Origin: Actinomycetota bacterium
Lineage (GTDB): Bacteria; Actinomycetota; Rubrobacteria; Rubrobacterales; Rubrobacteraceae
Reading direction: 5' to 3'
Assembly (NCBI GenBank): GCA_902810695.1
Contig: CADDYV010000010.1
Coordinates: 1-64,000, forward strand
Length of the DNA stretch: 64,000 bases
The notes below the pieces were generated by a model. The model was not told the origin of the DNA and did not search any database. It saw nothing but the letters and a program-made list of their open reading frames with translations. A program made the position numbers and the translations under genes. Positions 3,515 to 43,502 of this stretch are shown one piece after another; position 1 is the stretch's first letter, and each line of letters opens with the position of its first letter.

Positions 3515-5194
3515 ATGATTGCCGGAAACATACCTGCAAAAGATAGGGGCGTACTGGAGACGAGGAGCGTAACCCGCCGTGACTTTCTCAAGATCGGCGG
3601 CGCGGGGCTGGCGGGAGCGGCGCTGCTGGGGGTCGCGGGCTGCGGCGGTGGAAGTAAAAATCAGCAAGGTGGGGGAAAGCCGATCAAGGGCGGCACGTTG
3701 CAGGCTACCTCCCAGCAGGACCCACCATCTCTGGACCCGGCGCTGGCTTACGACGGGTATAGCTGGGCTCTGATTCACGGCCTGTTCGTCACCCCGATCA
3801 CCTACACCAGGACCGGCGAGGGATTCGTACCCTGGGCGGCGAAGTCCGTGCCCAAGCCAGAGAACGGCGGCCTGAAGTACGTCTTCGACATCCATCCCGG
3901 CATCAAGTTCACCAACGGCGAGTCGGCTGATGCCGCGGCTTTCAAGTACCAGATCGAACGGGTCCTAAACCCCAAGACAAAAAGCCCCCTGGCAGGCTTC
4001 TACACCAACATCGTGGGAGCCAAGAAATACCGCAGCAATCCCAAAGGAAGCGTAAAGGGCATAAAGGTTCTCTCGCCGACGAAGATACAGTTCGACCTCG
4101 AAAAGCCGGACCAGATCTTCCTGCAAACCATGTGCATACCCTCGGCTTCGGCGGTCCCGAAGAAGGCGGTCGAGAAATACGGGCAGGACTTCGCGAGCCA
4201 CCCGGTAGGGGCCGGGCCTTTCAAGCTGGAGCAGTGGAAGCGCGGCTCGAAGCTGATCCTGGCGAAGAACAAGAACTACTTCGACAAGAACACTGCGGCC
4301 AGGCTGGACAGGCTCGTATACACTATTGGCTTCGATCCGCACACCGGAATCTTGCGCGTGGAGCAGGGTACTGCGGACTACGTGTACGCCAACAACACCA
4401 TACCGTCGGGAGACTTCAACGCCGTGGTGAACAATCCCAAGTGGAAGAGTTACGTTCACCACGCCACGCTCAACGAGCTCGGCTACGTATATATGAACAT
4501 GAAGATGAAGCCGTTCGACAGCCCGAAGGTGCGCGAGGCGATGCAGTACGCAATTGATAAGGGACGCATCATCCAGGTGATAAATGGCACGGGTACGGTA
4601 GCCAACCAGATCCTGCCGCCTCACATGCCTGGTTACGACAGGAGTATCAAAAATATCCCCTACGATCCGGGCAAAGCCAGGAGCCTCCTCAAAGAAGCCG
4701 GATACAAAAACGGCTTCACCCTCGATTACTGGAATTCAAACGACGACGACCGCCCCAAGATAGACCAGGTGATTCAGCAGAACCTCTCGGATGTCGGGGT
4801 CAAGGTCAACATCCACAGCGTCTCGCTCGCCTCGTACGTGAGCAGGATGCCGACGGGTAAGATCCAGATCGGATTCTCGACGTGGTCCGAAGACTTCCCG
4901 GACCCCTCGGACTTTCTGAATATTCTGTTCAACTCGGACCAGATCCCCACCAACAACCAGCCCCAGTACTCCAATCCGAAGGTAGACAAGGAGTTGAATC
5001 GGGCGCAGTACATGCTGGACAGGAAGAAGCGGCTCGCGCTCTACCAGAAGATCCAGAAGCAGATCCTCTCGGCCCACCCGATAGTCCCGCTCTACTTCGG
5101 TGTCGAGTACGACTTTATCTCGCCAAAGGTCGGCGGGTTTTACATACACCCGGTGTGGCACCAGGTATACGCGGACTGGTATCTGACCGGGTAG
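3515..5194 (+). CDS. ABC transporter substrate-binding lipoprotein, family 5 (peptide/nickel type)
   Basis: This 559-residue extracytoplasmic solute receptor has a twin-arginine-like RRDFLKIGGAGLAGAALL leader ending in a lipobox (VAGC), so it is probably exported and lipid-anchored. The mature part shows family-5 landmarks: SLDPA near the N-terminus, a FxxxxGVKF-like segment (DIHPGIKFTNGE), HPVGAGPFK and VREAMQYAIDK. The ligand is probably an oligopeptide or similar organic solute but cannot be read from sequence. No permease or ATPase gene adjoins it, unlike its paralogue at 43592, which has the same leader design. The start follows a weak GGGTAGGA site. Confidence 0.9.
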   Translation: MIAGNIPAKDRGVLETRSVTRRDFLKIGGAGLAGAALLGVAGCGGGSKNQQGGGKPIKGGTLQATSQQDPPSLDPALAYDGYSWALIHGLFVTPITYTRTGEGFVPWAAKSVPKPENGGLKYVFDIHPGIKFTNGESADAAAFKYQIERVLNPKTKSPLAGFYTNIVGAKKYRSNPKGSVKGIKVLSPTKIQFDLEKPDQIFLQTMCIPSASAVPKKAVEKYGQDFASHPVGAGPFKLEQWKRGSKLILAKNKNYFDKNTAARLDRLVYTIGFDPHTGILRVEQGTADYVYANNTIPSGDFNAVVNNPKWKSYVHHATLNELGYVYMNMKMKPFDSPKVREAMQYAIDKGRIIQVINGTGTVANQILPPHMPGYDRSIKNIPYDPGKARSLLKEAGYKNGFTLDYWNSNDDDRPKIDQVIQQNLSDVGVKVNIHSVSLASYVSRMPTGKIQIGFSTWSEDFPDPSDFLNILFNSDQIPTNNQPQYSNPKVDKELNRAQYMLDRKKRLALYQKIQKQILSAHPIVPLYFGVEYDFISPKVGGFYIHPVWHQVYADWYLTG

Positions 5195-37122: not shown

Positions 37123-37149
37123 GTAAGGAGTCGGTAAGAACTGCGTAAG
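37123..37149 (+). promoter_or_regulatory. Triple GTAAG direct repeat, 11-bp period
   Basis: GTAAG occurs at 37123, 37134 and 37145, exactly 11 bp apart, 80 bp before the ccdA start. Tandem half-sites one helical turn apart are the usual binding mode of OmpR/PhoB-family regulators, and the operon downstream encodes one (38702-39388). Autoregulation is inferred. Confidence 0.55.
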
Positions 37150-38638: not shown

Positions 38639-38701
38639 TCGGAGTAGAGCGTGGGAGTCCGGAATCCCGCTATAATCGGGAAAACCCAAGGAGCAGCACA
38701 G

Positions 38702-39388
38702 GTGGCGAAGATCCTGGTCGTTGATGATGAGCCCAACATCCGGGAGGTAGTCGGCCTCTACCTGGAGAGAGACGGTCACACCGTCATCTCCGCTTCCAAT
38801 GGCAATGAAGCCTTGAAGCTCTACGAGAGGGTCAGGCCGGATTTGGTGGTGCTGGATCTCATGCTGCCCGGGGTGAGCGGGCTCGAAGTGTGCCGGCGCA
38901 TCCAGGCAGAGCGGAGGGTACCCCTGATCATGCTGACTGCCAGGGGTGAGGAGGAAGACAGAATCATCGGGCTGGGACTCGGAGCCGACGACTACGTGAC
39001 CAAGCCCTTCTCGCCGCGCGAGCTGGCGGCCCGCGTCGAAGCGGTACTCCGGCGGACCAACGAAGCGCAGGCGAGTCCGGTGGTTGGCGGGGCGCTGGTT
39101 TTCGAAGAGTTGCGGATAGATCGCAGCACGCGCGAGGTAACCGTTCACGGTGAGCCGGTAACGCTCACGGCGCGGGAGTTCGATCTGCTCTACCATCTGG
39201 CCTCTCATCCCAGGCGCGTATTTACCAGAGACCAGTTGATGGAGGCGGTCTGGGGATATGCCTTCTCCGCCGATACCAGCACCGTTACCGTCCACATACG
39301 CAGGCTGCGCGAGAAGATAGAGAAGAACTCCACCAAACCGCGCTATCTCCAGACCGTATGGGGCGTTGGCTACCGGTTCGGCGGATGA
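38702..39388 (+). CDS. OmpR/PhoB-family response regulator
   Basis: The 228-residue regulator has a receiver domain (acidic pair D8/D9, phospho-acceptor D52 in VVLDLMLPG, K101 in TKPFS) and a C-terminal winged helix (TAREFDLLYHLASHPRRVFTRDQLMEAVWG, VTVHIRRLREKIE). GTG 38702 follows AAGGAG. Its stop overlaps the kinase start (ATGA). Expected DNA targets are direct repeats at 11-bp spacing, three sets of which I find nearby. Confidence 0.95.
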   Translation: MAKILVVDDEPNIREVVGLYLERDGHTVISASNGNEALKLYERVRPDLVVLDLMLPGVSGLEVCRRIQAERRVPLIMLTARGEEEDRIIGLGLGADDYVTKPFSPRELAARVEAVLRRTNEAQASPVVGGALVFEELRIDRSTREVTVHGEPVTLTAREFDLLYHLASHPRRVFTRDQLMEAVWGYAFSADTSTVTVHIRRLREKIEKNSTKPRYLQTVWGVGYRFGG

Positions 39389-40814: not shown

Positions 40815-42491
40815 ATGGGTGCCAGATCGAGGGCGGCAATAGCGGGCGTCGCGGGCGGCGTTGTAACTTTCGGGATCACAGAACTGGTCCACGGTTTATA
40901 CGATCCCGTCCCATCAGTGCTTGTATCGGTTGCCCAGATCATAGCCAGATTGACGCCGGGTGCGCTGGTAACGAAGGGCATCGAGACTCTGGGTACGGCG
41001 GACGTGCCAACCTTGATCACGGTCGCGGTGATCGGAACGCTGGCGATAGCGGCCTTCCTCGCAAACCTGAGCCGCAGTCGTCCGCTTGCTGCCCTGGTAG
41101 GCGTGGCGGGTCTGGGCGCGATCGCACTCTACGCCACCTTCGCCGAACCTTTTACCTCTTCTGTAGCTACAGTCTTGACCATACTCGCGGCTCTGGCCGC
41201 TGGCTGTGTCGTTGCCGTTTTCTTGAGGGGCATTTCCGGTTTGCGAAGTGAGAAAAAGCCTGCATCTTCCACCGAAGGTGGGGATCACAGAGTACCGCAG
41301 ATGCCAGACGTCAGGTACAGAGAGTCGGGGGAGGGAGGGGAGATATCGGTTGGACGCCGCAGTTTCCTCGCGCTCAGTGGCCTCGCGACGCTGGCGGGGC
41401 TTGCTGCCGTGGGTGTGGGGCGCGCCCTGGGAAGCGGGCAAGCGCAGCAAGTGAGCCGGCCCCACAAGCTGAAACTCCCCGGGAAGCCATCCGCCCCAAA
41501 AGGTTCCGGGACTTCCGTCGCAGGCTCTGGGAGCAAAACTGTAACGCACAAGACCTTGCCGCCCCCGCCCAGATCGGCCTCCATAGAAACAAAAGGGATG
41601 CCGGAGTTGATCACACCCGCCAAGAACTTCTATCTCATAGACACCGAACTTTCCTCGCCCCGGCTCGACGCCAAAACCTGGAAGCTTTCGGTCAAGGGAG
41701 CGGTAGATAACCCGTTCGAGATGACCTACAAAGATCTCCTCGGCATGTCCACCATCGAGGCGGACATCACGCTCTCCTGCGTCTCCAACCCGGTTGGCGG
41801 CGGTCTCGTCTCCAATGGCCGCTGGACCGGCGTACTGCTCTCCGATGTTTTAAAAGAAGCCGGGGTAAGCCGCGACAAGATCACCCGCGCCTCCAGACAA
41901 CTCGTGGGCAGGAGCGTGGACGGCTTTACGACGGGCTTCAAGACGGAAATCGCACTCGACGGTCGCAATGCGCTGGTTGCCTTCGGGTTGAACGGGGACC
42001 AGCTTCCCATCATTCACGGCTACCCGGTGAGGCTGGTCGTGCCAGGGCTCTACGGTTACGTCTCGGCTACCAAATGGCTCACTGAGATAGAGCTTACGAA
42101 CTGGAGCTTCGACGCGTACTGGATCCAACGCACCTGGTCCAAGCAAGGCCCCATCAAAACCCAGTCCCGAATAGACACCGTAACAGACGGGGACACACTC
42201 AAGGCGGGCAGGACCCCGATCGGTGGTGTCGCCTGGGCTCCTCACCGGGGTATCTCTAAAGTTGAGGTTTCAACAGATAACGGGTTCACCTGGCACAAAG
42301 CCCGACTCGCCAGACCCCTGAGTATTGATACCTGGCGCCAGTACGTCTACTACTGGGACGCTGAACCCGGCAACTATACACTCAAAGTACGCGCCACCGA
42401 CGGGACCGGCAAAACCCAGACCGCCAGGGAAACCCCACCGCACCCCTCCGGCGCCACCGGCTATGACACGGTAAACGTAACCGTGTCATGA
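40815..42491 (+). CDS. Membrane-bound sulfite-oxidase-like molybdopterin oxidoreductase
   Basis: 558 residues. About five helices in the first 150 residues (AAIAGVAGGVVTFGITEL, LITVAVIGTLAIAAFLANL, LAALVGVAGLGAIALYATF, VATVLTILAALAAGCVVAVFL) precede an internal twin-arginine-like GRRSFLALSGLATLAGLAAVG segment. A sulfite-oxidase-type molybdopterin domain follows, with the Mo-ligand cysteine C322 in TLSCVSNPVGG, and then a C-terminal dimerisation domain (GVAWAPHRGISKVEVSTDNG). This arrangement is known in actinobacterial relatives. The active domain should face outside; the substrate (sulfite or another oxo-acceptor) is not certain. GGAGG lies upstream. Confidence 0.9.
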   Translation: MGARSRAAIAGVAGGVVTFGITELVHGLYDPVPSVLVSVAQIIARLTPGALVTKGIETLGTADVPTLITVAVIGTLAIAAFLANLSRSRPLAALVGVAGLGAIALYATFAEPFTSSVATVLTILAALAAGCVVAVFLRGISGLRSEKKPASSTEGGDHRVPQMPDVRYRESGEGGEISVGRRSFLALSGLATLAGLAAVGVGRALGSGQAQQVSRPHKLKLPGKPSAPKGSGTSVAGSGSKTVTHKTLPPPPRSASIETKGMPELITPAKNFYLIDTELSSPRLDAKTWKLSVKGAVDNPFEMTYKDLLGMSTIEADITLSCVSNPVGGGLVSNGRWTGVLLSDVLKEAGVSRDKITRASRQLVGRSVDGFTTGFKTEIALDGRNALVAFGLNGDQLPIIHGYPVRLVVPGLYGYVSATKWLTEIELTNWSFDAYWIQRTWSKQGPIKTQSRIDTVTDGDTLKAGRTPIGGVAWAPHRGISKVEVSTDNGFTWHKARLARPLSIDTWRQYVYYWDAEPGNYTLKVRATDGTGKTQTARETPPHPSGATGYDTVNVTVS

Positions 42492-42617
42492 GCCACAGAA
42501 CGGAAATAACTCTGAACCAGATTAACCTTAACCGTTTTATAGAGGTTTACTGTGTAAAGTAACCAAAAGGACGTTTTGCTTCTATTAACGTAGGTTACAA
42601 TAACAATATTTAGTTGC

Positions 42618-42655
42618 GTAACAAAACTGTAACATTAATACAAGACGAATGTAAT
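42618..42655 (+). promoter_or_regulatory. GTAAC/GTAAT direct repeats in an 11-bp register
   Basis: GTAAC at 42618 and 42629, and GTAAT at 42651 (two further turns), fall on one 11-bp register. A TATAGT -10-like hexamer follows at 42666. No good -35 is present, as at promoters activated by OmpR/PhoB-type proteins. Confidence 0.5.
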
Positions 42656-42675
42656 ATAAGCCGAGTATAGTGAAT

Positions 42676-42762
42676 ACATCCGAGTTCCGGCCGGTGGGAT
42701 TTACTTCCCCCCTCCAAATCCCGCCGGTCGGGTCGGCATTTCTGGGGACATCTCCTTTTTAC
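42676..42762 (+). ncRNA. Candidate small RNA with a C-rich hairpin loop
   Basis: No coding frame is evident between 42492 and 42810. Downstream of TATAGT (42666-42671) lies a 15-16-bp stem (42687-42702 with 42716-42731, two G-U pairs) enclosing the 13-nt loop ACTTCCCCCCTCC. The loop is complementary to Shine-Dalgarno sequences, a design common in Gram-positive regulatory RNAs. A short GGGG/CTCC stem followed by TTTTT (ending near 42762) could end the transcript. The ends are estimates, and the element could instead be a structured 3' region of the molybdoenzyme mRNA. Confidence 0.45.
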
Positions 42763-42809
42763 CTGCTGCGTGCGCCTATGCGCGAAGGTGTATATAATCG
42801 CGGGCTATC

Positions 42810-43502
42810 TTGAGGGTCGAGGGGATTCACGAGTTCGAGTTCACGCCGGCGGAGGCGAGGCGTTTGCAGGACGAGTTGGCGCCGCGAGTTGAGGCGGGGC
42901 CGGCTCTGGATCTGGATCGGCTGCGGTATGTGGCCGGGGCGGATGTCTCTACGGAGAAGGACATGGCCTACGCTACGGTGGCGGTGTTGAGCTTCCCGGA
43001 GTTGGCGGTGGTGGAGGTTCAGGGCTTCGAGGCTCCGCTCAAGTTTCCCTACGTGCCGGGGCTCCTCGCTTTTCGGGAGATACCTTCCGTCAAGGGAGCC
43101 CTCGAAAAAGTCGAGTCGCCGGTTGATGCCGTAATCTTCGATGCCCAGGGACTCGCCCATCCGAGGCGGATGGGGCTGGCTTCGCATCTCGGGCTTTTTC
43201 TGGATGTGCCGAGCGTCGGGTGCGCCAAGAGCCGGCTTGTCGGGAAACACGAAGAGCCTGGCCCGAGAAAAGGCGACAGCGTGGATCTCATAGACCGGGG
43301 GGAGAGGGTGGGGAAGGTCGTGCGTACCCGTGATGGGGTTTCGCCGGTCTACGTCTCGGTCGGGAACAGGATCAGCCTGGAGAGCGCCGTAGAGCTGGTG
43401 CTCGCCTGTTGCACCAGGTACCGCCTTCCGGAGCCGACGCGGCAGGCGCACAACGCGGCCAACAGGCTTCGCCGCAGGGAAGCCCCCGAAGGCCTCTTTT
43501 GA
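42810..43502 (+). CDS. nfi: Endonuclease V
   Basis: The 230-residue enzyme cleaves DNA (or RNA) near deaminated adenine (inosine). It has the family motifs YVAGADVST (metal-binding Asp), PYVPGLLAFREIP, VIFDAQGLAHPRRMGLASHLG and SVGCAKSRLVG. The start is TTG 42810. A TATAAT box at 42793-42798 sits so close that the leader can be only a few nucleotides long, with no ribosome-binding site visible. The length is normal. Confidence 0.95.
   Translation: MRVEGIHEFEFTPAEARRLQDELAPRVEAGPALDLDRLRYVAGADVSTEKDMAYATVAVLSFPELAVVEVQGFEAPLKFPYVPGLLAFREIPSVKGALEKVESPVDAVIFDAQGLAHPRRMGLASHLGLFLDVPSVGCAKSRLVGKHEEPGPRKGDSVDLIDRGERVGKVVRTRDGVSPVYVSVGNRISLESAVELVLACCTRYRLPEPTRQAHNAANRLRRREAPEGLF

Follow-up and report, generated by a model that had tools for sequence, protein, structure and literature searches.

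A candidate small RNA of the Rubrobacteraceae with an anti-Shine-Dalgarno-like loop, predicted to act on secreted cell-wall hydrolases

An intergenic region of a Rubrobacteraceae genome (148 contigs, 3.59 Mb) most likely encodes, as judged from its fold and conservation, a single-hairpin small RNA with an exposed 13-nt loop. With a probability of roughly 0.7, we favor the reading that this RNA is controlled by a two-component system and acts in trans as an anti-Shine-Dalgarno RNA that would lower the levels of autolysins and surface proteins. In the proposed circuit, an envelope-type signal would lead to a phosphorylated OmpR/PhoB-family response regulator, most likely of the MtrA type, on an 11-bp GTAAC array, where it would substitute for the -35 box and activate the small RNA gene. 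The outcome would be a burst of 66-nt RNA, a single terminator hairpin displaying a C-rich loop that may base-pair with GGAGGGGG(G) ribosome-binding sites and thereby block translation. The chief targets would be the peptidoglycan hydrolases of the Golvesin-NlpC/P60, Amidase_2, RlpA/DPBB and SpoIID types, with CAP, RTX, subtilase and other surface proteins as further targets. The features found in the window, that is, the whole 64-kb stretch of DNA that was analyzed, and the candidate targets in the same genome are listed in Table 1.

Table 1. Features of the small RNA locus in the window, and genes of the source genome with loop-complementary ribosome-binding sites
Feature	Position or locus	Strand	Remark
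GTAAG half-sites (three) upstream of ccdA-type gene	37123-37149	+	exact 11-bp register
OmpR-family response regulator	38651-39388	+	candidate regulator; best structural relative MtrA (2gwr, 4.9e-61)
Oxidored_molyb gene	40815-42491		upstream flank of the small RNA locus
Operator array	42618-42655	+	GTAAC 42618-42622, GTAAC 42629-42633, ACAAG 42640-42644, GTAAT 42651-42655
-10 hexamer TATAGT	42666-42671	+	15 bp past start of last half-site
Predicted small RNA, about 66 nt	42678-42743	+	start inferred from -10 box
Hairpin 5' arm	42680-42702	+	4 bp + bulge GU + 17 bp; folding, covariation
Exposed 13-nt loop ACUUCCCCCCUCC	42703-42715	+	seed complementary to GGAGGGGGG ribosome-binding sites
Hairpin 3' arm	42716-42736	+	folding
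Short U-tract of intrinsic terminator, ATTTCT	42738-42743	+	longer T-run in most relatives
Possible back-up terminator	42744-42760	+	4-bp hairpin + TTTTT; not conserved in relatives
Endonuclease V gene	42810-43502		downstream flank of the small RNA locus
Amidase_2 proteins (three)	L378, L408, L384		GGAGGGGG ribosome-binding site
DPBB proteins (two)	L369, L392		GGAGGGGG ribosome-binding site
Golvesin-NlpC/P60 proteins (two)	L358, L409		GGAGGGGG ribosome-binding site
SpoIID; CAP; GHL10	L395; L374; L360		GGAGGGGG ribosome-binding site
Subtilase (S8); RTX protein	L382; L122		GGAGGGGG ribosome-binding site
Cadherin/Ig-domain surface protein	L405		GGAGGGGG ribosome-binding site
Secreted unknowns (two)	L129, L135		GGAGGGGG ribosome-binding site

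A conserved hairpin between two protein-coding genes

The elements named in the original prediction (half-sites, TATAGT, hairpin, loop and TTTTT) are all present in the sequence, and the stretch between the Oxidored_molyb and endonuclease V ORFs holds no coding frame, as had been stated. The hairpin, expected to have 15-16 bp and an exposed loop, folds as 17 + 4 bp (-34.3 kcal/mol, z = -4.2), and none of 200 shuffled sequences was equally stable. The loop requires no opening before pairing, and it constitutes an unpaired, conserved, C-rich (CCUCC) seed. It had also been proposed that the transcript, of about 85 nt, closes with a terminator-like end containing TTTTT. A terminator does exist; however, in relatives a T-run lies directly 3' of the hairpin, and therefore it is the hairpin with its ATTTCT that terminates, the TTTTT at 42756 being at most a back-up. 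Since the hairpin is its own terminator, an RNA of about 66 nt is expected, and about 83 nt would be reached only by read-through. The minus strand was rejected as the functional strand, its fold being no better than shuffles (z 0.46), and a small antisense gene was rejected because the antisense GGAGGGGGGAA-ATG frames are of unconserved length, from 8 to 70 codons.

Searched as DNA at a loose cut-off, the intergenic region gave matches in 46 of 61 genomes; the significant ones were confined to Rubrobacteraceae and fell mostly on the hairpin. The closest matches of the endonuclease V query were records of Rubrobacter and Rubrobacteraceae. In an alignment of 22 homologues, UUCCCCCCUCCA forms a near-invariant block between stem arms of changing sequence. 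Two-sided changes were seen in 7 of 19 stem pairs, and the observed percentage paired and covariation score, the scores being inflated by the relatedness of the sequences, were reached by none of 500 shuffles. The slid controls used alongside had at best 51% of cells paired, against 90% at the true stem. A covariance model detected the small RNA in 33 of 40 Rubrobacteraceae genomes, spanning 13 of 13 genera, with scores of 51-96 bits, and in all but one of the 22 genomes with at least 90% completeness and at most 5% contamination. The match in the source genome (42668-42750) had 71.3 bits and an E-value of 1.4e-18, to be read in light of the fact that the model was trained on part of the same sequences. 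In a search of 397 genomes of the phylum, nothing above 25 bits was found outside the family (about 357 genomes). Homology of the loci can be regarded as safe in view of the further loci found and the constant synteny. The original prediction had staked itself on conservation of stem and loop in relatives, and both, together with the operators and the -10 box, are conserved across the 13 genera, with a covarying stem. One genome (G003, contig C27) carries two tandem copies, at 4651-4731 and 4726-4796 (L082), the second with a lower score of 36.8 bits.

Nearly all genomes share the gene order oxidoreductase - small RNA - endonuclease V. In nearly all genomes the Oxidored_molyb gene lies just 5' of the element, which ends in a T-run, so that the hairpin might be a mere intrinsic terminator of that gene, with a C-rich loop devoid of function in trans. 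However, a plain terminator would not preserve a near-invariant 12-nt loop sequence, nor half-sites and a -10 box at fixed distance directly before the hairpin, and one genome (G010, L018) has the element although a search of the 1.5-kb flank found no oxidoreductase gene. We thus find it quite improbable that termination is its only role. Endonuclease V, in turn, lies within about 100 bases 3' of the element in most genomes, as it would if the element were a cis-acting leader or attenuator of this gene. Against such a role, which we consider very improbable, two genomes (L018 and L020) keep the element without an adjoining endonuclease V, R. taiwanensis (L022) has endonuclease V with no element in front, no conserved alternative structure was seen, and G-rich complements of the loop sit elsewhere in the genome. 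The small RNA is therefore better viewed as an independent unit, since it is kept where endonuclease V does not adjoin, and the sequence evidence points to a conserved unit with its own promoter and intrinsic terminator.

The promoter array and its candidate regulator

The GTAAC/GTAAT repeats were confirmed to stand on an exact 11-bp register. They correspond to units 3-6 of a six-unit family array (GTAAC, GTTTC, GTAAC, GTAAC, GCAAG, GTAAC), units 1 and 2 being decayed in this genome. Units 3, 4 and 6 match GTAAC at four or more of five positions in 30, 29 and 30 of 30 homologues, respectively, and the -10 box lies at a constant distance from them in nearly all homologues, one row of this register count having been mis-registered by the script. 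Within the window, GTAACN6GTAAC has a single exact match, and five matches with at most one mismatch, compared to 0.99 expected. A sigma-70 -35/-10 consensus pair was sought at the promoter and not found, there being no -35 hexamer. A half-site array without a -35 box, as in pho-box-type promoters, is the anatomy of activation by OmpR/PhoB-family response regulators, and this anatomy supports the view that such a regulator would activate transcription of the small RNA. Upstream of the six-unit array, about 100-150 bases 5' of the hairpin, relatives (L044-L062) carry a partly conserved block, approximately CTAAAC-N5-AGGTTnAGGTTnAG, which may either be the site of a further regulator or lie in the final part of the transcript of the upstream gene.

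Two GTAAC-type half-sites on the 11-bp register are present, as would fit the MtrA regulon, and they are similar to the MtrA consensus of C. glutamicum, (A/G)TAACAATttn(A/G)TAACAAT (PMC3353115). GlnR boxes (GTnAC-n6-GTnAC) are similar, overlapping MtrA boxes and being bound by MtrA (PMC10704036), and for this reason the name of the regulator is one that we infer. Owing to this overlap, the same small RNA could be driven by a GlnR- or PhoP-like regulator answering to a nitrogen or phosphate signal, and not by an MtrA-type envelope regulator. However, the other GTAAC arrays of this genome mostly precede secreted and envelope genes and none was seen before nitrogen genes; besides, in M. tuberculosis peptidoglycan hydrolases are under MtrA control (PMC10480492). 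A GlnR- or PhoP-like regulator is possible, though it is not what we expect. The same role of MtrA makes an MtrA-like array in front of a small RNA with hydrolase targets coherent, and the signal, we presume, would be envelope stress.

The scans of the source genome for operators and targets consisted of a pattern search plus selected stretches. Nine three-unit arrays with at most two mismatches were found elsewhere in the genome, against two for the reversed control, mostly preceding secreted or membrane proteins, among them an NlpC/P60 hydrolase and an RTX protein. An NlpC/P60 gene (L096, contig C28 near 41817) has, in addition to its GTAAC array, a 5' leader whose GAGGAGGGGGGCTCCTC can self-fold and hide a loop-complementary G-run; this leader had no Rfam riboswitch match. 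In front of a secreted RTX-repeat protein (L092/L122, contig C5, 67594-67645), a three-unit GTAA-type array directly precedes a GGAGGGGGG ribosome-binding site, and joint control of this gene by the regulator and the small RNA is possible.

The response regulator encoded in the window is MtrA/RegX3-like, and its gene belongs to a run headed by the ccdA-type gene, followed by genes for a thioredoxin-like protein, the regulator itself and its kinase. It had been suggested that one regulator drives both ccdA and the small RNA. The three half-sites before ccdA agree with this, so that the gene is a possible second target of the small RNA's regulator and the array might serve autoregulation. However, a shared regulator is no more than plausible, since the response regulator and kinase genes are not beside the small RNA in most relatives, and direct evidence for this adjacent regulator as the cognate one was sought and not found.

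Ribosome-binding sites complementary to the loop

Sequences exactly complementary to the loop, with an ATG after them, were gathered from sets of 15, 7 and finally 40 family genomes. The genes behind them include many that encode secreted proteins, such as Golvesin_C amidases, Golvesin_C NlpC/P60 proteins, and DPBB/RlpA, CAP, beta-helix and RTX proteins, and some non-secreted ones (tpiA-, comM- and coaX-like). In the source genome, duplexes of loop and target range from -19.8 to -25.5 kcal/mol. Peptidoglycan-hydrolase families account for 8 of 30 genes behind GGAGGGGG and for none of the 16 behind AAGGAGGTG, the control Shine-Dalgarno (Fisher p 0.02), and export-type N-termini for 18/30 and 4/16, respectively (p 0.02), as counted by hand from printed lists of ORFs of at least 120 codons, with small control sets and with several targets that are paralogues having Golvesin_C in common and not all independent. 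In this genome, GGAGGGGG-N-start as a bare pattern shows no enrichment (60 sites compared to 56 for the reversed control), and it was rejected as proof of targeting. The signal for targeting appears to lie in which genes carry the pattern and not in its frequency. The original prediction had the loop pairing with G-rich ribosome-binding sites of many mRNAs; the complementarity is strongly supported, but it concerns one class, secreted hydrolases and surface proteins, and not random mRNAs. The complementary sites are thus found on a coherent and conserved set of genes. No known riboswitch was matched by Rfam in 13 target loci. Five targets (L392, L374, L395, L382 and L358) keep (A)TCTGGAGG, which fits the family loop CUCCAGAU better than CUCCAAAU of the source genome, the mismatch being outside the exposed 13-nt loop.

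A reverse test started from the genes, with NlpC/P60 proteins located by the Pfam model in eight genomes. In the Golvesin-NlpC/P60 subfamily, ribosome-binding sites complementary to the loop occur in all genera examined (eight genera). Duplexes with the loop range from -19.9 to -29 kcal/mol for nine genes of seven genera; in the eighth genus, GGAGGGGGGCC precedes a Golvesin-NlpC/P60 gene (L118). Other NlpC/P60 genes and short-chain dehydrogenases (adh_short_C2), taken as controls, have means of about -11 to -12 kcal/mol, and the subfamily differs from both (Mann-Whitney p 1.8e-4 and 2.1e-5, respectively), with the weakness that start codons were chosen from signal peptide and Shine-Dalgarno, in two cases by hand, and with one NlpC/P60 gene of G020 (L308, -10.1), maybe of the same subfamily, left out because it did not fit.

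These sites must also be weighed against the view that the small RNA is real and its loop acts mainly otherwise, by protein binding or on a few targets other than ribosome-binding sites, the G-rich sites being just strong Shine-Dalgarno sequences. GGAGG does belong to the ordinary Shine-Dalgarno, secreted genes may prefer strong ones, and the frequency of the bare pattern is what this view would expect. However, energies of pairing with the 16S anti-Shine-Dalgarno are similar in targets and controls whereas those with the loop differ, the extra G-run contributes little to anti-Shine-Dalgarno pairing, and the feature is common to unrelated protein families. Such an action is therefore unlikely. 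We prefer pairing of the loop with the ribosome-binding sites, from which we infer repression as the direction of control.

Known anti-Shine-Dalgarno small RNAs and meaning for the family

At gathering score, Rfam finds only a tRNA in the window, and the sub-threshold matches to mir-23, mraW and ar14 were rejected as chance-level. The 6C covariance model gave no match even at E-values up to 10, and the 6C architecture consists of a pair of stem-loops, both C-rich in the loop, as opposed to the one hairpin here; the alpha-r14/ar14 model gave 15.0 bits against a gathering cut-off of 58.8. By these tests of model and architecture, the small RNA appears to belong to none of LhrC, B11/6C and alpha-r14/NfeR1, although by analogy it would be of the same anti-Shine-Dalgarno kind and work as they do.

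B11, of the 6C family in M. tuberculosis and M. abscessus, represses via the eccB4 5' UTR, which has a tract of six G, and for this B11 needs just one of its two C-rich loops, no matter which (PMC10470900). The small RNA described here is likewise actinobacterial, and 6C/B11 loops have about six cytosines. Unlike 6C/B11, with its two C-rich stem-loops, it has a single one, its seed hairpin is the terminator, its promoter carries an OmpR-type array and its predicted targets are mainly cell-wall hydrolases. The LhrC1-5 RNAs of Listeria monocytogenes are switched on through a two-component system when the cell envelope is stressed, and their CU-rich motifs, one of them in the terminator structure, bind the mRNA of a cell-wall protein and impede translation (PMC4132741). 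They are unrelated in sequence and exist as five copies with three redundant CU-rich sites, whereas the RNA studied here is single-copy and single-loop and comes from a different phylum. In Rhizobiales, alpha-r14/NfeR1 displays an unpaired ultraconserved anti-Shine-Dalgarno motif, CCUCCUCCC, on hairpins whose stems vary and is linked to a two-component system (PMC10746234), but it has three hairpins and its targets are in nitrogen metabolism. Finally, the Streptomyces RNA scr5583/sar2652/svr5279 is conserved and highly expressed, with a terminal loop that is 67% C (PMC3765725). The sco5583 gene, which scr5583 should adjoin to judge from its name, responds to loss of MtrA (PMC5650626). With its C-rich loop and its name taken from an MtrA-responsive gene, scr5583 is a possible functional counterpart outside Rubrobacteraceae.

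No paper on a small RNA of Rubrobacter was found in the literature searched, and as far as that literature goes, a small RNA aimed at hydrolases behind an MtrA-like array would be new. The broader proposal, which we put forward tentatively, is a brake on autolysins throughout the family: a 66-nt RNA driven by an MtrA-type regulator, whose terminator loop would mimic the 16S anti-Shine-Dalgarno tail and silence hydrolases and surface proteins. If this is true, a single circuit would unite control of cell-wall cutting at the transcriptional and the RNA level, as a counterpart to the envelope-stress small RNAs of enterobacteria. The design would be very small, with one hairpin serving as seed, stabilizer and terminator. 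The RNA would represent an undescribed family in a deep-branching actinobacterial lineage, with secreted peptidoglycan hydrolases as a concrete regulon, and would tie OmpR/MtrA-type envelope signaling to post-transcriptional control of autolysins.
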